A stretch of DNA of 64,000 nucleotides. Source: an uncultured Spirochaetales bacterium (GTDB lineage: Bacteria; UBP6; UBA1177). The DNA is taken from the NCBI GenBank assembly GCA_902774115.1, contig CACYHH010000007.1:1-64000 (forward strand), written 5' to 3'. Positions 1 to 13,850 of this stretch are shown in pieces. The notes beneath the pieces are model-generated. The model did not search any database. It was not told where the DNA came from and saw only the letters and a list, made by a program, of their open reading frames with translations. Position 1 is the stretch's first letter, and every line of letters starts with the position of its first letter. A program made the translations under genes and the position numbers.

Positions 1-68
1 CGGGCGATCCTTTCTTTCTGGGCGATGGTCAGGGAGGCCCACCATATGTCGAGTTCTGTCTTTTTCAT
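1..68 (-). CDS. Partial small protein of Bacteroidota type (N-terminus only)
   Basis: Read on the minus strand from an ATG at 68-66, the frame is open to the window edge and begins MKKTELDIWWASLT. I do not recognise a function; the Trp-rich start resembles short hypothetical proteins of Bacteroidota. A match to the Bacteroidota -7 box lies about 26 bases upstream (94-101). It belongs to the foreign fragment at the window start, not to the organism of the rest. Confidence 0.5.
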   Translation of the reverse strand, partial: MKKTELDIWWASLTIAQKERIA

Positions 69-93
69 GGTTTCTGTCTGTAACTGGTCACTA

Positions 94-101
94 CAAAGAT
101 A
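94..101 (-). promoter_or_regulatory. Bacteroidota-type -7 promoter element (leftward)
   Basis: The minus strand reads TATCTTTG, matching the Bacteroidota consensus TAnnTTTG. It is placed to transcribe the truncated gene at 1-68. Confidence 0.5.
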
Positions 102-142
102 GACATTTTCCCGGACATTATTGTTAATTCGAAGGGAATGGT

Positions 143-150
143 TATTTTTG
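143..150 (+). promoter_or_regulatory. Bacteroidota-type -7 promoter element (rightward)
   Basis: The plus strand reads TATTTTTG, again matching TAnnTTTG, with a TTG at 121-123 about 19 bases upstream that could be the -33 part. It lies 20 bases before the ATG at 171. With 94-101 it forms a divergent pair of Bacteroidota-style promoters, unlike the TTGnnn/TAAAAT promoters elsewhere in the window. Confidence 0.5.
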
Positions 151-170
151 TAAAGAAAAGACTTTTCCCT

Positions 171-321
171 ATGCGTAAGTATCTGTTGCTGCTCGCTTTG
201 CTGCTCCTTCCGCTGGCCCTTTCCGGCCAGGAGGACACGCTCCGGCTGGGCTATTCGGTCCGCGGAACCGTCGTGGACGCGGCGACAGGCCGTCCGCTCG
301 AGGCTGTCCACGTGTCCATTC
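171..321 (+). CDS. Truncated Bacteroidota outer-membrane protein start (carboxypeptidase-like regulatory domain)
   Basis: From the ATG at 171 the protein starts MRKYLLLLALLLLPLALSGQ, a clear signal peptide, then runs into GTVVDAATGRPLEAVHVSIP, typical of the carboxypeptidase-regulatory-like domain at the start of TonB-dependent receptors and related Bacteroidota proteins. Homology ends at about 318-336, where the DNA turns into pyruvate:ferredoxin oxidoreductase sequence in another frame; downstream residues in this frame are out-of-frame noise to a stop at 482. The break is best read as an assembly join. GC-rich codon use also differs from the rest of the window. Confidence 0.6.
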
Positions 322-1866
322 CCGACCGGCACCACGAAATTCGAAAAACGCGGCGTCGCGATCAAACTTCCGAAATGGATCCCCGAAAACTGCATCCAGT
401 GCAACAAATGCTCCTTCGTCTGCCCGCACGCTGCGATCAGACCTGTCCTTCTTACCGAAGAAGAAGCTGCAGAAGCTCCTGAAACCTTCAAAACGATCAA
501 GGCTATCGGCAAAGGTCTCGAAGGTCTCAAGTTCAGAATGCAGGTTTATCCGATGGACTGCCTCGGCTGCGGAAACTGCGCTGATGTCTGCATCGCGAAG
601 AACAAAGCACTCGAAATGGTTCACTTCGGCGAAATCGTTGACGAAGAAGCTGCAAACAACGACTTCTCGATCAACGTTCCGGTAAAGGACGACCTCCTTC
701 CGAAGAACACGGTCAAAGGCAGCCAGCTCCAGCAGCCGCTCTTTGAGTTCAGCGGTGCATGCGAAGGCTGCGGCGAAACTCCGTATGTCAAACTCATCAC
801 TCAGCTTTTCGGCGACAGAATGATAGTTTCCAACGCAACGGGCTGCTCCTCGATCTACGGCGGAACCGCTCCGACGATTCCTTACTGCAAGAACAAAAAC
901 GGCATGGGTCCGGCATGGGCAAACAGCCTTTTTGAAGACAACGCAGAACACGGCTTCGGTATCGCTCTCGCTGTAAAACAGAAAAGAAACACACTCGAAG
1001 CTCTTATGAAGAAAGCTATCGAAAAACCGACATGCGACTGCGGCGACGAGCTTTGCGAAGAAGCTAAGAAACTCTTCCAGGAATGGATCGACAACAAAGA
1101 AGACGCAGAAAAGACGAAAGAGCTCTATCCGAAGATCATGAATGTTCTCGCAAACGGCGATCCGTGCTGCGAAACGCTCGACAGGATCTACGATCTCAGC
1201 GACTACATCGTTAAAAAGTCGATCTGGATCCTCGGCGGCGACGGATGGGCTTACGATATCGGTTACGGCGGTCTTGACCACGTTCTCGCAAGCGGCGAGA
1301 ATGTAAACATCCTCGTTCTCGACACCGAAGTTTACTCCAACACGGGCGGCCAGGCTTCAAAGGCATCCCAGTTCGGCCAGACTGCTAAATTCGCGACAAG
1401 CGGAAAGAAAGTAAGAAAGAAAGATCTCGGAATGATTTCCATGACTTACGGCTACATCTACGTTGCAAGCGTTGCAATGGGCGCAAACCACGATCAGCTT
1501 GTAAAGGCTATGACCGAAGCTGAGAAATACAACGGACCGTCACTCATCATCGCTTACGCTCCGTGCATCAACCACGGTATCGACATGTCACACAGCCAGA
1601 ACGAAGAGAAACTCGCGGTCGAAGCAGGCTACTGGCCTCTTTACAGATTCAACCCGGAACTCAGAAAGGAAGGAAAGAATCCGTTCCAGCTTGACAGCAA
1701 AGAGCCGACCCGCGATCCGCAGGAACTCCTTGACAGAGAAGTCCGCTTCAAATCGCTCACCAAACTCTTCCCGAACGAAGCAGCTAAACTTCACGCTATG
1801 CTCAAGGCTGACCTCAAAGATCGTTACGAGAGACTCAAAAAGCTCAACGACAACGATATACTTTAA
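322..1866 (+). CDS. nifJ: Pyruvate:ferredoxin (flavodoxin) oxidoreductase, C-terminal part
   Basis: The enzyme oxidatively decarboxylates pyruvate to acetyl-CoA and CO2 and passes electrons to ferredoxin; it is the central fermentative enzyme of anaerobes. In-frame sequence starts at PTGTTKFEKRG (322), a conserved stretch in the second half of the family. It continues through two 4Fe-4S motifs, CIQCNKCSFVCP and CLGCGNCADVC, and the thiamine-pyrophosphate domain, with CEGCGETPYVK carrying the third-cluster cysteines and GDGWAYDIGYGGLDH plus NTGGQASKA following. The family is about 1170 residues, so the first ~650 are missing. They are lost at the join with foreign DNA, not by a stop or frameshift inside the gene. 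The internal ATG at 538 is not the real start, because the first ferredoxin motif lies upstream of it. Ends with a terminator at 1930-1955. Confidence 0.93.
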   Translation, partial: PTGTTKFEKRGVAIKLPKWIPENCIQCNKCSFVCPHAAIRPVLLTEEEAAEAPETFKTIKAIGKGLEGLKFRMQVYPMDCLGCGNCADVCIAKNKALEMVHFGEIVDEEAANNDFSINVPVKDDLLPKNTVKGSQLQQPLFEFSGACEGCGETPYVKLITQLFGDRMIVSNATGCSSIYGGTAPTIPYCKNKNGMGPAWANSLFEDNAEHGFGIALAVKQKRNTLEALMKKAIEKPTCDCGDELCEEAKKLFQEWIDNKEDAEKTKELYPKIMNVLANGDPCCETLDRIYDLSDYIVKKSIWILGGDGWAYDIGYGGLDHVLASGENVNILVLDTEVYSNTGGQASKASQFGQTAKFATSGKKVRKKDLGMISMTYGYIYVASVAMGANHDQLVKAMTEAEKYNGPSLIIAYAPCINHGIDMSHSQNEEKLAVEAGYWPLYRFNPELRKEGKNPFQLDSKEPTRDPQELLDREVRFKSLTKLFPNEAAKLHAMLKADLKDRYERLKKLNDNDIL

Positions 1867-4267: not shown

Positions 4268-4313
4268 CAACTGTTGCATTTTTTGCAACACTCCCCGCCC
4301 CCCTCACAAAAGC
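4268..4313. repeat. 46-bp hairpin repeat, copy 1
   Basis: Perfect inverted repeat TGTTGCA (4272-4278), loop TTTTT, TGCAACA (4284-4290), followed by a C-rich tail ending CACAAAAGC. Copy 2 at 4744-4789 is the same length and nearly identical, in the same orientation. It could also work as a terminator for the gene ending at 4263. Confidence 0.75.
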
Positions 4314-4383
4314 AGATAGTTTATCAATTTTCAGGCAGGAACTCGATCTTCAGTCTCATTCCCATTCTATATCTAATTTTCAC

Positions 4384-4411
4384 TTGACAAAAACATCAGA
4401 TGTGTTAGACT
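4384..4411 (+). promoter_or_regulatory. Promoter of the candidate structured RNA
   Basis: TTGACA at 4384-4389, 16-base spacer, TAGACT at 4406-4411. It predicts a start near 4418, right at the 5' strand of the closing stem of the RNA fold. Confidence 0.65.
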
Positions 4412-4418
4412 ACCGACA

Positions 4419-4689
4419 ATGCTGGAGCGTGGGCGGAGACTGCCGCCGCCGTCGGTGTTACACCGAGTGAATCGTGGATTTGGCAACCACCGCGTCAGCA
4501 TACCTTATTTTCATGTTCGTTATGTCGTTCTTGGCATTGCTCAAATAGATTTCAAAATAAATTTAAAAAAATTCGAAACAAGCATTGACAAATCTTTTTA
4601 CCGCATTACATTCCCGACATAAGGATATCGCGCCTTTGACTGCGAACTTTATACGGCCGGAGCAGTTTTTATTGTTCCGGCATTTTTTT
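4419..4689 (+). ncRNA. Candidate structured small RNA, family not recognised
   Basis: No credible protein lies here, but there is a promoter just upstream and a strong terminator at the end, giving a transcript of about 270 nt. The first 83 nt fold as a multibranch: closing stem ATGCTG (4419-4424) with CAGCAT (4496-4501), an inner GCG (4427-4429) with CGC (4491-4493), and three hairpins. These are GGCGG/CCGCC (4432-4447, loop AGACTG), TCGGTG/CACCGA (4452-4466, loop TTA) and GTGG/CCAC (4474-4490, 9-base loop). The fold looks like a cloverleaf but is not a tRNA. The rest is AT-rich and holds a second TTGACA (4585-4590) that might start a shorter RNA into the same terminator. I match it to no riboswitch, SRP RNA, tmRNA, 6S or RNase P RNA. 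Confidence 0.55.
4656..4689 (+). terminator. Rho-independent terminator of the candidate RNA
   Basis: Nine-pair stem GCCGGAGCA (4656-4664) with TGTTCCGGC (4673-4681), one G-T wobble, 8-base loop, then a run of seven T (4683-4689). No protein gene lies just upstream on the plus strand, so it terminates a non-coding transcript. Confidence 0.88.
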
Positions 4690-4743
4690 AGGGTGAAATG
4701 CTGAATATTTACGAGATGGATCCTGATTACATCTGTTAGAGCT

Positions 4744-4789
4744 CAACTGTTGCATTTTTTGCAACACTTCCCCCACCCCGCACAAAAGC
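4744..4789. repeat. 46-bp hairpin repeat, copy 2
   Basis: Direct repeat of 4268-4313 with the TGTTGCA/TGCAACA hairpin (4748-4766) perfectly kept and changes only in the C-rich tail. The two copies bracket the RNA locus. The remaining bases up to the XRE gene at 4927 are AT-rich with no gene. Confidence 0.75.
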
Positions 4790-4926: not shown

Positions 4927-5190
4927 ATGGATATCTTAAAAGTATTCGGTACTAATGTAGTAAATTTCCGTAAGCAGAAAAATCTTTCTCAGGAAAAATT
5001 GGCAGAACTAAGCAACCTGCACCGCACATACATCAGCGGCATCGAACGCTGTGGACGTAACGTTTCCCTCGAAAATGTTCAGAGAATCGCGGACGCGTTG
5101 GAGATTGAAACATACAAACTGCTTGTGGAACACAAAGTTTTGAACCAAAACAAAGTGCAAAAAAGGAAAATAATTTCAACTAATGATTAA
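4927..5190 (+). CDS. XRE-family helix-turn-helix regulator
   Basis: An 87-residue Cro/C1-type protein: FGTNVVNFRKQKNLSQEKLAELSNLHR then TYISGIERCGRNVSLENV covers the five-helix HTH, with a short basic tail. Size and position resemble controller proteins of restriction-modification and other defence loci, which repress or time the gene behind them. GGAGG at 4914-4918 sets the ATG. The downstream gene starts inside its last codons (overlap 5183-5190), so the two are translationally coupled. Codon use is more AT-rich than in the housekeeping genes, consistent with acquisition by transfer. Confidence 0.88.
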   Translation: MDILKVFGTNVVNFRKQKNLSQEKLAELSNLHRTYISGIERCGRNVSLENVQRIADALEIETYKLLVEHKVLNQNKVQKRKIISTND

Positions 5191-7237
5191 CCGCTATTTT
5201 TACAAATCATCTCTTTTGGATTTCTTAAATTCTTCCGTTGACAACATTTTTGGCCAAATGTCACGTGCTGACGAAATGGACACCGTGGCTACTCAGAAAT
5301 TTGCATGGTCTGAAGAAATTGAAATTATGAAACGAGTTCTGATTCCATGGCAACAAGAAAATGCAGAAATTCTGTTTGAATATTCAATCCCTCGACTTGG
5401 CAAAAGAATAGATGTCGTTGTTTTATTACGAGAAAGAGTCTTTGTTCTTGAATTTAAGGTTGGAAAAACAGAGTATCAGCATAGTGATGTTGATCAAGTT
5501 TTGGATTATGCTCTTGACTTAAAGAACTTTCATCAAGGCAGCATCGATCGCTTGATAATTCCTATATTGGTTGCAACGGAAGCACCAGAACACTCAACTG
5601 AACATAGACTTTCACATTACAACGATGGAATTTATGAGCCTCTTTTGACAGATGTCAAACATCTTCAAGAGATAATAAACATGGTTTTATCTGATAAAAT
5701 CGAACCTAAAACATATAGCATTGCCTTGGAAGATTGGGCTCGAAGCCGCTATGCACCGACTCCAACTATTATTGAAGCTGCGAGATCACTTTATTTGAAT
5801 CACAGCGTGGAAGATATTACCCGTCACGAAGCTGAAGGTGAACAACTTGAGCGCACCACAAGTTATGTGCAGCAAGTAATACGTGAAACAAAAGCGAGAG
5901 GCGGTAAAAGTATCTGCTTTGTTACAGGCGTTCCTGGCGCCGGCAAAACATTGGTTGGACTTAACGTAGCCGTCCAACAAGAATCCAATGAAGATTTAGC
6001 AGTTTATTTATCAGGAAATGGTCCATTAGTTGCAGTTCTTACCGAAGCTCTGACACGCGATAAACAAGCTCAAGAAAAAGCACGAGGAATAAAAATAACT
6101 AAGAAAACTGCCGAAAGTGAAGTTAAGCGTTTTATCCAAATCATCCATCGTTACCGCGATAATATGCTTAACAAAGTTAAACTGGTGGATGGCAAACTGA
6201 AAATAGATCCGACAAAAGAATTGAAAGACAAATTCGCTGGTTATGGTGAAGTAGAAAACATTGCCATATTCGACGAAGCCCAGCGTTCGTGGGACAAAGA
6301 ACATATCGCTTCTTGGCTTAAACGGAAGAAGGGTTTTGCTGATTTTCCGATGTCGGAAGGCGAATTTCTCATTTGGTCACTTGATCAACGCAAAGATTGG
6401 GCCGTAATAGTTTGCCTTGTAGGTGGTGGTCAGGAAATAAATACCGGAGAAGCCGGTATTGGCGAATGGATTCGTGCTCTAAATGAGACATTTCCAGATT
6501 GGCAGGTTTATATTTCCAGTCAATTAACAGCCAAAGAATACGCAGAAGGAAAAGTTGAAGAGTTATTGCAAAATAATCCTCATGTTATTTATTCTGATGA
6601 CTTACATCTTGCTGTATCTATGCGGAGTTTCCGAGCAGAAAGTTTATCAAATTTAGTCCATAATTTGTTAGATGGAAATATTAGCAAGGCTCGTGAAATA
6701 TACAATTCTATTGCAGACCGATATCCTATTGTCCTGACGAGAGATCTTAAAAAAGCAAAGGATTGGCTAAAACAAAAAGCGAGAGGCCATGAAAGATATG
6801 GAATGGTCGTTTCTTCAAAGGCTTATCGCTTAAAACCACTTGCTATCGATGTGCGTTGCAAACCTGACACTGTCCACTGGTTTTTGGATGATATCAATGA
6901 TGTTCGTTCGTCTTTATTTCTGGAAGATGCCGCAAGTGAATTCGATATTCAAGGCCTTGAATTAGATTGGACTTGCCTTGTCTGGGATGGTGATTTGCGT
7001 AGAAATAAAAATTCCTGGGAATATTACGAGTTCAATGGCGGCTGCAAATGGAACCGCATAAACAAAGAAGAACGCAAATCTTATCAACTTAACGCATATC
7101 GCGTCTTGTTGACCCGCGCAAGACAAGGAATGATTATTTGTGTGCCTGAAGGAAATCCTGAAGATTCAACACGACTTCCACAATTTTATAATGACACTTA
7201 CGAATATCTGAAATCAATCGGATTTAAAGAGATTTAG
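5183..7237 (+). CDS. Nuclease-like plus DUF2075 helicase/ATPase protein (probable defence effector)
   Basis: A 684-residue multidomain protein. The N-terminal third has a PD-(D/E)xK signature, RIDVVV with Asp77 and VLEFK with Glu90 and Lys92, followed by a helix-rich part. From about residue 230 comes a DUF2075-type P-loop domain with Walker A GVPGAGKT (249-256), Walker B IFDEAQ (364-367) and, near the C-terminus, YRVLLTRARQGMIICVPEG, the conserved helicase-like motif of the family. This is known for DUF2075 proteins; a DNA- or RNA-directed nuclease-translocase role is inference. Paired with the overlapping XRE regulator and flanked by repeats, it looks like a two-gene defence module. Transcription probably comes from AT-rich DNA before 4927. 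Confidence 0.8.
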   Translation: MINRYFYKSSLLDFLNSSVDNIFGQMSRADEMDTVATQKFAWSEEIEIMKRVLIPWQQENAEILFEYSIPRLGKRIDVVVLLRERVFVLEFKVGKTEYQHSDVDQVLDYALDLKNFHQGSIDRLIIPILVATEAPEHSTEHRLSHYNDGIYEPLLTDVKHLQEIINMVLSDKIEPKTYSIALEDWARSRYAPTPTIIEAARSLYLNHSVEDITRHEAEGEQLERTTSYVQQVIRETKARGGKSICFVTGVPGAGKTLVGLNVAVQQESNEDLAVYLSGNGPLVAVLTEALTRDKQAQEKARGIKITKKTAESEVKRFIQIIHRYRDNMLNKVKLVDGKLKIDPTKELKDKFAGYGEVENIAIFDEAQRSWDKEHIASWLKRKKGFADFPMSEGEFLIWSLDQRKDWAVIVCLVGGGQEINTGEAGIGEWIRALNETFPDWQVYISSQLTAKEYAEGKVEELLQNNPHVIYSDDLHLAVSMRSFRAESLSNLVHNLLDGNISKAREIYNSIADRYPIVLTRDLKKAKDWLKQKARGHERYGMVVSSKAYRLKPLAIDVRCKPDTVHWFLDDINDVRSSLFLEDAASEFDIQGLELDWTCLVWDGDLRRNKNSWEYYEFNGGCKWNRINKEERKSYQLNAYRVLLTRARQGMIICVPEGNPEDSTRLPQFYNDTYEYLKSIGFKEI

Positions 7238-10792: not shown

Positions 10793-10821
10793 TTGTTTTT
10801 GATTTTTCTATCTGATATACT
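10793..10821 (+). promoter_or_regulatory. Promoter of the first MmeI-like gene
   Basis: TTGTTT at 10793-10798, 17-base spacer, TATACT at 10816-10821, then TGCGCGC and a T-rich leader. It rules out the in-frame start at 10821, which would lie in the -10 box, and supports the ATG at 10854. Confidence 0.6.
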
Positions 10822-10853
10822 TGCGCGCTTTAATTTTGATTAGCGAGGCGGAA

Positions 10854-13850
10854 ATGGCGAAAAGCGGCATAAATCAGAAAAAGGCGGCGAAGGAATTTGC
10901 GGAAAAATGGTGCGGCCGGGGCGACGAAAAGCAGGACACTCAGGCGTTTTGGACATCGCTTTTACGCGATGTTTTCGGTGTTGCAAATCCCGAAGATTCG
11001 ATTCAATTCGAGAAAAGGATCAAACTCGGACACACAAGTTTTATCGATGCCTATATTCCGTCCACAAAAGTGCTGATTGAACAGAAAAGCATTGATGTCG
11101 ATCTGCTGAAACCTGCAAAACAGTCGGACGGAACTCTTCTCACGCCTTATCAGCAGGCAGACAGATACAGAAAAGAACAGAATTATTCGGAAGCCGCGCG
11201 CTGGATCGTAACCTGCAACTTCAAAGAGTTTTTCATTTACGACATGGATCACCGCGAAGCCGAACCAGAACATATATTTCTGAAAGATTTGGATAAAGAT
11301 TTCAATCGCTTGCAGTTTTTAGCAGATCAGAAAAACGCCGCCATAAGCCGTGAAGAGGAAATTTCCCTCAAAGCGGGCGAACTTGTAGGAAAACTTTATG
11401 ATGCGATTTTGAAACAGTACAAAGATCCTGAAAGTGCCGAAACTCTTAAATCATTGAATGTTTTATGTGTAAGACTCGTTTTCCTGCTTTATGCCGAAGA
11501 TGCAGGAATTTTTGCCGAAAAAGATATGTTCGGGCGTTATCTGGCAAAATTCAGACCGGAAGAAACCCGTGAAAAGATTCTGAATCTGTTCAATGTTTTG
11601 AACACAAAACCTGAAGATAGAGATCCTTATTTAAGTGACGATCTTGCAGCTTTTCCTTATGTAAACGGCGGACTTTTTGCCGAACAAAGTATAGAAATCC
11701 CAAGATTTAATGAGGAGATCGTCGATATTCTGGTAAACAAGGCAAGCGCAGGCTTTGACTGGTCGGAAATTTCTCCGACTATTTTCGGAGCCGTTTTTGA
11801 ATCGACTTTGAATCCTGAAACTCGGCGCAAAGGCGGGATGCACTATACAAGCATTGCAAACATCCACAAAGTCATTGATCCGCTCTTTTTGGATGATCTG
11901 AGAGCTGAATTTGCAAAAATAATCCGAAAAAATGCACGCGAGCCGCGTGCGCTCCGACAAAAATTAGAAGATTTCCGCAACAAACTTGCAGGTTTGACTT
12001 TCCTTGATCCCGCCTGCGGAAGCGGCAACTTTCTGACGGAAACCTATATTTCGCTGAGACGCCTGGAAAACGAATGCCTGAAAGTTATTCACGGCTCTCA
12101 GATGCTCCTTTCAAGCAAGGATTTTTCGCCGATAAAAGTGAAAATTTCGCAGTTTTACGGCATTGAGATCAACGATTTTGCGGTAACTGTCGCTAAAACG
12201 GCACTTTGGATCGCCGAAAGCCAGATGATGAAGGAAACCGAAGAAATCGTTGAGCAGAATCTTGATTTCCTGCCTCTTTCCACAAGTGCGACGATTGTTG
12301 AAGGCAACGCTCTCAGAACGGACTGGACAACGCTTGAACCCGAATCAAAACACGATTTTGTTTTTGCCGACAAGCTGAATGTCTACAAAATTGATGAAAA
12401 ATCAGGAATAAATATGGTTGGAGAGCCTGAAATTCCATACGGAGCGCATTATCAGGAACTGAATGTCGCAACAAAAGAAATTACCGAAAGAAAATTTCCG
12501 GGAAAGGATGTGAAACATAGCGTAGTTTACGACTATATTATCGGAAACCCGCCGTTTGTCGGTGCACGCTTTATGGACAAATATCAAAAGGAAGATGTTT
12601 TGCACACTTTCGGCAAGGAGTGGCGCGGTGTAGGAGATCTCGATTATGTCTGCTGCTGGTATAAAAAGGCTTTGACTGTGATAAAAGGTGTGAACACAAG
12701 ATGCGCATTTGTCTCAACAAATTCCGTAACACAGGGAGCATCTGTCGCAAATCTGTGGAAGCCTCTTTTTGCCGAAGGGCTTCATTTTGATTTTGCGTGG
12801 CGCACATTCAAATGGGCGAATGAAACATCGGACAAGAAAAATATGGCGGCTGTTCACTGCGTGATAATCGGATTCAGTGCTACTGAAAACCCAAAAACGA
12901 AAATCATTTTTACAAGCGAACAGGAAAAAATCGAGGCTGAAAACATAAACGGATATCTGCTTGATGCTCCTGATCTTTTTATCGAAAAACGAACAGTGCC
13001 TTTGTGCAGCGTGCCTCCGCTTCTTACTGGCAGCCAGCGTATTGATAACGACGAATTCATATTTACAGATGAAGAAAAAGCTGAATTCATAAAAACAGAA
13101 CCTTTTTCGGAAAAATATTTCCGTAGATGGTATGGGGCGGAGGAATTTTTGTATAATTCTCCGCGCTGGTGTTTATATTTGGGAAATTGTTCGCCGGCAG
13201 AACTTCGTAAAATGAAAAGTTGTATGAAAATTCTAGAAGCGGTGAAACAATATCGCCTTGGCAGCAGAAGAGCGGCAACTGTAAAAGCGGCTTTATATCC
13301 GGCAAGATTCGGACTTGAGGTTATTCCGACAACAAATTTTATGATTGTTCCTGTTGTCTCTTCAGAAAAACGATTTTATCTCCCGATCGGGTTTATGACT
13401 CCCGACAATCTTTGCAGCAATCAGGTAAATCTTATTCCCGATGCCGCACTTTATCATTTCGGGGTGTTGACAAGCTCGGTTCATAATGCTTGGATGCGTG
13501 CTGTCTGCGGAAGGCTTGAAATGCGGTATCGTTATTCAAAAGAGATTGTTTACAACAATTTTCCATGGCCGAACCTCTCCGACTGCTGCGCAGCCACCTC
13601 TCCTAAAAGGCGAGGCAAGGATCTTAAGGCTGACATCGAAGAAACGGCGCAGGCAATTCTTGATGCCCGCGCAAAATATCCCGATTCCTCTCTTGCAGAT
13701 CTTTATGATGAGACTTTGATGCCGCCGGAACTCCGCAAAGCCCACAAAGAAAACGACAAAGCCGTCATGGCTGCTTACGGCTTCAACCAGAAAATGACAG
13801 AAACCGAAATCGTGGCTGAACTTTTTAAGATGTATGAGAAACTTTCCTAA
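10854..13850 (+). CDS. MmeI-like (type IIL/IIG) restriction-modification protein, copy 1
   Basis: A single polypeptide of 998 residues carrying nuclease, adenine methyltransferase and target recognition. N-terminal endonuclease signature: Asp65, Glu76 and Lys78 in FIDAYIPSTKVLIEQKS. Next is the helical spacer (ISLKAGELVGKLYDAIL onward), then methyltransferase motif I FLDPACGSGNFLTETY and motif IV YIIGNPPFVGA. The target-recognition domain runs roughly from DLFIEKR to YNNFPWPN, and the C-terminal YPDSSLADLYDETLMPPELRKAH block is typical of the family. No separate specificity or methylase gene is needed. A paralogue lies at 32130-35165. Odd: a palindromic insert in frame just after FPWPNLSD (13574-13615) and another palindrome at 11934-11950. 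Confidence 0.88.
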   Translation: MAKSGINQKKAAKEFAEKWCGRGDEKQDTQAFWTSLLRDVFGVANPEDSIQFEKRIKLGHTSFIDAYIPSTKVLIEQKSIDVDLLKPAKQSDGTLLTPYQQADRYRKEQNYSEAARWIVTCNFKEFFIYDMDHREAEPEHIFLKDLDKDFNRLQFLADQKNAAISREEEISLKAGELVGKLYDAILKQYKDPESAETLKSLNVLCVRLVFLLYAEDAGIFAEKDMFGRYLAKFRPEETREKILNLFNVLNTKPEDRDPYLSDDLAAFPYVNGGLFAEQSIEIPRFNEEIVDILVNKASAGFDWSEISPTIFGAVFESTLNPETRRKGGMHYTSIANIHKVIDPLFLDDLRAEFAKIIRKNAREPRALRQKLEDFRNKLAGLTFLDPACGSGNFLTETYISLRRLENECLKVIHGSQMLLSSKDFSPIKVKISQFYGIEINDFAVTVAKTALWIAESQMMKETEEIVEQNLDFLPLSTSATIVEGNALRTDWTTLEPESKHDFVFADKLNVYKIDEKSGINMVGEPEIPYGAHYQELNVATKEITERKFPGKDVKHSVVYDYIIGNPPFVGARFMDKYQKEDVLHTFGKEWRGVGDLDYVCCWYKKALTVIKGVNTRCAFVSTNSVTQGASVANLWKPLFAEGLHFDFAWRTFKWANETSDKKNMAAVHCVIIGFSATENPKTKIIFTSEQEKIEAENINGYLLDAPDLFIEKRTVPLCSVPPLLTGSQRIDNDEFIFTDEEKAEFIKTEPFSEKYFRRWYGAEEFLYNSPRWCLYLGNCSPAELRKMKSCMKILEAVKQYRLGSRRAATVKAALYPARFGLEVIPTTNFMIVPVVSSEKRFYLPIGFMTPDNLCSNQVNLIPDAALYHFGVLTSSVHNAWMRAVCGRLEMRYRYSKEIVYNNFPWPNLSDCCAATSPKRRGKDLKADIEETAQAILDARAKYPDSSLADLYDETLMPPELRKAHKENDKAVMAAYGFNQKMTETEIVAELFKMYEKLS
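11934..11950. repeat. Perfect palindrome inside MmeI-like copy 1
   Basis: GCACGCG (11934-11940), AGC, CGCGTGC (11944-11950). It encodes part of a linker just before the methyltransferase domain. The paralogue has a different palindrome in the same linker (34073-34097). Confidence 0.5.
13574..13615. repeat. Two-hairpin palindromic element, in-frame copy
   Basis: GCTGCGCAGC (13585-13594) followed by CCTCTCC-TAAAA-GGCGAGG (13597-13615, one mismatch). It has the same two-hairpin order and CCTC...CAGC...CCTC layout as 1871-1911. It adds about 14 residues (CCAATSPKRRGKDL) absent from the paralogue and keeps the frame. Confidence 0.6.

Follow-up and report, generated by a model that had tools for sequence, protein, structure and literature searches.

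A probable composite relic of two toxin loci, carrying a single-unit variant of the ToxI antitoxin RNA

Do a promoter, a cloverleaf-like fold and a terminator, standing in that order on one strand, make a single RNA gene? A locus in an uncultured Spirochaetales bacterium (assembly GCA_902774115.1, contig CACYHH010000007.1) raises this question. An earlier note, made from the sequence alone, had proposed that positions 4384-4689 are a new structured RNA gene. The stretch that we analysed, hereafter called the window, is 64,000 nt long and forms part of contig C7 of a 2.5 Mb genome; it was compared with 14 other genomes of the genus, all from uncultured UBP6/UBA1177-like bacteria of rumen or gut.

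The locus is very probably something else. We read 4384-4739 with high confidence as a composite relic, in which two decayed toxin loci have become fused within a hotspot of defence and toxin-antitoxin (TA) genes. The right part encodes a real RNA of a known type, a variant of ToxI, and the left part holds a candidate antisense RNA. The features of the locus are collected in Table 1.

Table 1. Features of the composite locus, in positions of the window
Feature	Position	Strand	Remark
Left RNA promoter, TTGACA, 16 nt, TAGACT	4384-4411	+	Reads against the 3' end of intact PBECR3 in congeners
Conserved 85-nt block, three hairpins inside a closing stem; candidate RNA antisense to PBECR3	4418-4502	+	2/85 variable columns
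3' remnant of PBECR3 predicted-RNase gene	4458-4550	-	Last ~30 of 171 codons; stop 4458-4460; identity ends at ~4542
Deletion junction	4542-4553	.	~640 bp of G012 missing in the window
toxI promoter, TTGACA, 16 nt, TACATT	4585-4612	+	-35 invariant in seven aligned toxI loci; -10 TACATT or TATATT
Single ToxI-type antitoxin unit, H-type pseudoknot	4619-4655	+	Pairs covary across ToxI units of the genus
toxI/toxN intergenic Rho-independent terminator	4656-4689	+	Only T-run length differs among aligned copies
toxN remnant, 13 codons (MLNIYEMDPDYIC, then stop)	4698-4739	+	Aligned with intact toxN starts of G001, G005 and G013

Two parts that meet at a deletion

The elements named in the earlier note are all there. 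Its promoter is present (10 of 12 matches, with an extended -10), as is the closing helix with three inner hairpins (minimum free energy -33.9 kcal/mol) and, at 4656-4681, a terminator hairpin with a run of seven T, to which our scan gives 11 pairs rather than nine. No known family claims the interval: an Rfam search returned 0 matches at the gathering cut-off and only chance matches up to E 10, and ARAGORN detected no tRNA or tmRNA. Promoter-like sites are not enriched in the region, however, at 13 against 8.7 ± 3.4. Nor is the 85-nt fold exceptional: its z is -1.29, 21 of 200 shuffles are equally good, and the reverse strand reaches -32.3 kcal/mol. The absence of a protein gene between promoter and terminator holds for the + strand; on the - strand, a PBECR3 gene has its 3' end at 4458-4545. 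The truncated toxN begins just past the claimed RNA interval, at 4698.

Comparison with the congeners splits the locus in two. When 4380-4700 is used as the query, matches break between query positions 163 and 174. Positions 1-163 match G001, G007, G012 and G014, and positions 174-321, whole or in parts, match G012, G011:C8, G005, G013, G001:C18 and G002. The counterparts of window positions 4542 and 4553 are separated by ~640 bp in G012. The two parts, apart in G012 and fused in the window, therefore record a deletion in the window with its junction at ~4542-4553. The fused arrangement is otherwise found only in G011:C48 (99% identity over 321 nt), and G011 is an apparent sister with the same deletion.

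One new structured RNA gene that began at 4418 and closed with the terminator at 4681 would explain why promoter, fold and terminator stand in order on one strand. Moreover, there is no terminator between the halves, so that a read-through RNA may exist in this genome. We nevertheless consider such a gene highly improbable: both halves stand apart in congeners, the terminator is that of toxI/toxN, a unit with a separate promoter at 4585-4612, and the fused order is shared with G011 alone. What had been taken for one gene is two loci joined at a deletion.

A single ToxI-type unit and a broken toxN

Among several roles, the earlier note had suggested that of a toxin or antitoxin RNA. This proves apt for the terminator half, a ToxI-type antitoxin RNA with a promoter of its own, and may hold for the left block.

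In an alignment of seven loci the promoter, a 36-nt unit, the terminator and the toxN start codon are all visible. The unit lies directly before an intact gene for a 161-aa ToxN in G001:C18, G005:C3 and G013:C13. The G001:C18 and G005 proteins match the Pfam ToxN family (PF13958; E 1.8e-45 and 3.5e-45), the G013 protein is 99% identical to that of G001, and a profile built from these and other ToxN sequences in the genus matches ToxN/AbiQ proteins of solved structure (2xd0, 7d8o, 4ato and 4glk). PADLOC names the ToxN toxin AbiQ. In the window, in G011:C48 and in G012, toxN ends after 13 codons.

The unit can form a pseudoknot in which stem S1 pairs 4621-4624 with 4633-4636 (AAGG/CCUU) and stem S2 pairs 4628-4631 with 4642-4645 (UCGC/GCGA). 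This geometry, without G-U pairs, arises in 0.4% of dinucleotide shuffles. When the pseudoknot is aligned with the three-repeat ToxI units of the genus (L028 and L035), 96.7% of cells are paired, against 36-51% in slid controls, two-sided compensatory changes occur in six of the eight pairs, and the covariation score is reached by none of 500 shuffles; the strength of this covariation is approximate, because the L028 and L035 units were read by eye, the units and the register were chosen by hand, and units of the same array are not independent. The fold of ToxI together with the terminator has a z of -3.2 to -4.6.

These are the marks of a type III TA system. The intact congener loci share with Pectobacterium ToxIN, B. 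thuringiensis ToxIN and Lactococcus AbiQ the order promoter, pseudoknot RNA, terminator, toxN, and they likewise combine a ToxN-family toxin with a ~36-nt unit of S1/S2 pseudoknot geometry. The terminator at 4656-4681 separates antitoxin from toxin, the unit forms the pseudoknot to which covariation and shuffles point, and ToxN lies downstream of the RNA in G001:C18, G005 and G013. The window differs in that only the 13-codon start of toxN is left. A further difference is the number of units. The published definition of type III systems requires a tandem antitoxin array, and antiQ needs at least 1.8 repeats (PMC5086642); here each locus has one core copy within 3 mismatches, and ~45 nt lie between the -10 and the terminator in single-unit loci. 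TRF, which also misses the diverged three-unit array at L028, finds no array at L008. Repeat collapse during MAG assembly could in principle produce a single unit, and is unlikely because arrays of three units were assembled normally within this genus. Since the locus has ToxI-like features but one unit, and so departs from one defining feature, we call it a variant: judged by its sequence, the single-unit RNA is a variant of the ToxI antitoxin with predicted antitoxin activity.

The antitoxin has outlasted the toxin at more than one locus. Eight loci in seven genomes carry the ToxI core, AAGGATRTCGCGCCTTTGACTGCGAA, identical but for one R position. Three of these loci have an intact toxN and five do not, namely the window, G011:C48, G012, G011:C8, where toxN has an internal deletion, and G002:C88, where its 5' part is missing near a contig end. 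The exact core is absent from the viral contigs searched, and the phage and plasmid DNA searched gave no relevant match. ToxN-family matches are found in 15 of 15 genomes (G000-G014), up to seven in each, and many are broken. Elsewhere, the genome that holds the window encodes one intact ToxN, at C4:412863, and one broken copy, at C1. The intact one has its own ToxI, with three units of different sequence, and the copy at C1 is broken, so the orphan ToxI has no close cognate toxin at home.

From these observations we infer transcription, antitoxin activity and any present-day role of the RNA as follows. A sigma-70-type promoter at 4585 would start a short RNA at ~4619, which would fold into one ToxI pseudoknot and stop at the terminator. 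In relatives with an intact locus, some transcription would continue past this point into toxN, and ToxI would bind and block the ToxN endoribonuclease. In the window the antidote alone would remain, with no cognate toxin in the genome, either as a neutral leftover or as protection against an incoming cognate ToxIN. A lineage with a functional-looking single-unit ToxI before an intact ToxN, beside congener loci with three units, would allow us to ask how many units are needed, and how the ToxN-ToxI complex assembles without inter-repeat processing. The unchanged ToxI at five loci without intact toxN makes orphan RNA antitoxins testable.

A second ToxN family of ~193 aa (L053, L051, L042, L044, L043, L050, L052 and L045) also has an apparent single antitoxin unit upstream. 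That putative unit has an extra hairpin, both sides of which appear to change together (GCGGATTTCCGC, GCGGGTTACCGC, GCGGCTTGCCGC).

The promoter and conserved block beside PBECR3

The left part is what remains of a different toxin-like locus. Four congeners carry an intact PBECR3 gene of 171-172 aa on the - strand, with its stop side toward 4458. The intact copies match Pfam PF18812 (E 3.9e-15), and the remnant in the window is 93% identical to PBECR3 residues 142-171 (tblastn). PBECR3 stands for phage-Barnase-EndoU-ColicinE5/D-RelE-like nuclease 3, and PBECR domains were described from phage and mobile-element proteins (PMC5512222). Here, by contrast, the gene is a solo chromosomal one with a conserved convergent promoter and RNA block. 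Its neighbours differ in G012, G001, G014 and G007, with no conserved adjoining protein gene. Outside the genus, we found no relatives in viral contigs or plasmids and two weak phage matches, and so there are no diverged homologues for covariation analysis.

The left promoter is conserved in a telling pattern. Among the four aligned intact modules, variable columns number 0 of 6 in the -35 and 1 of 6 in the -10, against 8 of 16 in the spacer and 30 of 46 in the left flank. The 85-nt block varies at two columns, and at 0 of 40 in its coding overlap, compared with 72 of 469 in the rest of the PBECR3 gene (Fisher p 4e-4, indicative only, as the four aligned sequences are related and mosaic). Conserved hexamers between diverged flanks, followed by a constrained block, are what would be expected of a real promoter with a constrained RNA. 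Promoter and block are thus conserved beyond expectation, and a real antisense RNA at 4418-4502 is possible. A covariance model of the block, run on 146 genomes, found only PBECR3 loci and a decayed piece in G009, and the exact core of the left RNA is absent from the viral contigs searched.

What might such an RNA do? It is quite possible, at somewhat less than an even chance, that 4384-4502, with the DNA that once followed it, worked as an RNA antitoxin against the PBECR3 RNase and is now an orphan in the window. With similar reserve, two forms can be proposed: the RNA may be antisense, converging on the toxin gene at its 3' end, or it may be structured and bind the nuclease. The pattern of conservation in promoter and block argues for an antitoxin RNA, as do the constant association of the block with PBECR3 and the lack of a conserved neighbouring protein antitoxin. 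Several observations pull the other way. The covarying pairs by which the earlier note would have judged the fold are absent, all 23 pairs being invariant among three distinct sequences, and the fold does not surpass those of shuffled sequence. At one of the two variable sites, the change would disrupt a possible fifth pair in the middle hairpin of the + strand, while on the - strand it leaves that pair as G-U. The toxicity of PBECR3 is a prediction, its 171 aa are far above the typical size of a type I toxin, and promoter conservation is the one guide to the choice of strand.

That choice matters, because the same block read on the - strand would be a structured element at the 3' end of the PBECR3 mRNA, for example one acting in stability or processing; the + promoter would then be incidental, and the block dead DNA in the window. 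We hold this as a tentative alternative, slightly less likely than the antitoxin RNA. The fold is symmetric between the strands, and its variation, which lies in the region of the PBECR3 stop codon (TAA/TGA), is of the kind that retains the G-U pair on the - strand. Moreover, a second conserved block sits in the 5' leader of PBECR3, so that conservation extends beyond the + strand RNA. An mRNA element nevertheless does not account for a conserved -35 and -10 amid flanks that have diverged. The leader block itself, a conserved hairpin at L005:2130-2200 with 2-4 variable of 43-45 columns, is lost in the window, and no Rfam family was found for it.

An antitoxin RNA at this position would have parallels in type I systems with a 3'-overlapping antisense RNA, such as yonT/SR6 and txpA/RatA of B. 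subtilis; SR6 is convergent on the 3' end of the yonT toxin gene (PMC5848175). In the congeners, likewise, a putative promoter-driven RNA converges on the 3' end of a putative toxin gene, and in four intact modules, where promoter and overlap are conserved, such a transcript would be complementary to the mRNA of the putative toxin. The toxin of a type I system is a small hydrophobic peptide, whereas PBECR3 is a predicted BECR-fold RNase of 171 aa, and in the window the target of the candidate antisense RNA has been deleted. A bolder reading, which we consider rather unlikely, makes the 4418 RNA the antitoxin in a TA system of a new kind, where a convergent, promoter-driven structured RNA is paired with a BECR-fold RNase of the PBECR3 family; the window would then keep two orphan RNA antitoxins side by side after the loss of their toxins.

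As we picture it, the left half would come from a convergent module, of which it keeps the + strand promoter and the 5' block of an antisense RNA over the 3' end of PBECR3; the deletion removed most of the PBECR3 gene. The promoter at 4384, if active, would now give an RNA that continues into toxI and stops at the toxI terminator because no terminator lies before it. Such a transcript could measure ~265 nt, in line with the size expected in the earlier note, but would owe its existence to the deletion. Should the PBECR3-linked RNA be real, it would bring RNA control to a nuclease family so far known mainly from phage and mobile-element proteins.

Two other candidates were rejected. A + strand open reading frame at 4419-4622 has no Pfam match, ranges from 63 to 226 aa in relatives and is antisense to PBECR3. 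An integron attC site, considered because the promoter holds GTTAGAC, has no visible partner core site.

Neighbouring genes and repeats

At the start of the window (1-340), a signal-peptide frame suddenly gives way to mid-gene sequence like that of pyruvate:ferredoxin oxidoreductase, an apparent chimera that is possibly a misassembly. An exact 21-nt hairpin repeat at 4271-4291 and 4747-4767 lies inside a 46-nt direct repeat (91% identity) that is found at only these two places in the genome; one copy of the hairpin follows a lipoprotein gene and the other is at the toxN break. The sequence GGAGCGTGGGCGG occurs at five places in the genome, the other four carrying C for T; a REP-like hairpin origin is at best a weak possibility.

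A RelB-type antitoxin gene at 2048-2329, preceded by a promoter at 1989 with a perfect 12/12 consensus, is followed by a toxin-like frame to 2607 (YafQ-like by eye) that is broken by an in-frame stop. In three toxin loci within 3 kb, those of this frame, PBECR3 and toxN, the toxin is therefore broken. Downstream, at 4927-7237, an HTH control-protein-like gene precedes a Schlafen-group-3 helicase, which matches the candidate defence protein PADLOC PDC-S41 over its full length (8e-269), and 10821-13850 encodes an MmeI-like type IIG restriction enzyme-methyltransferase.
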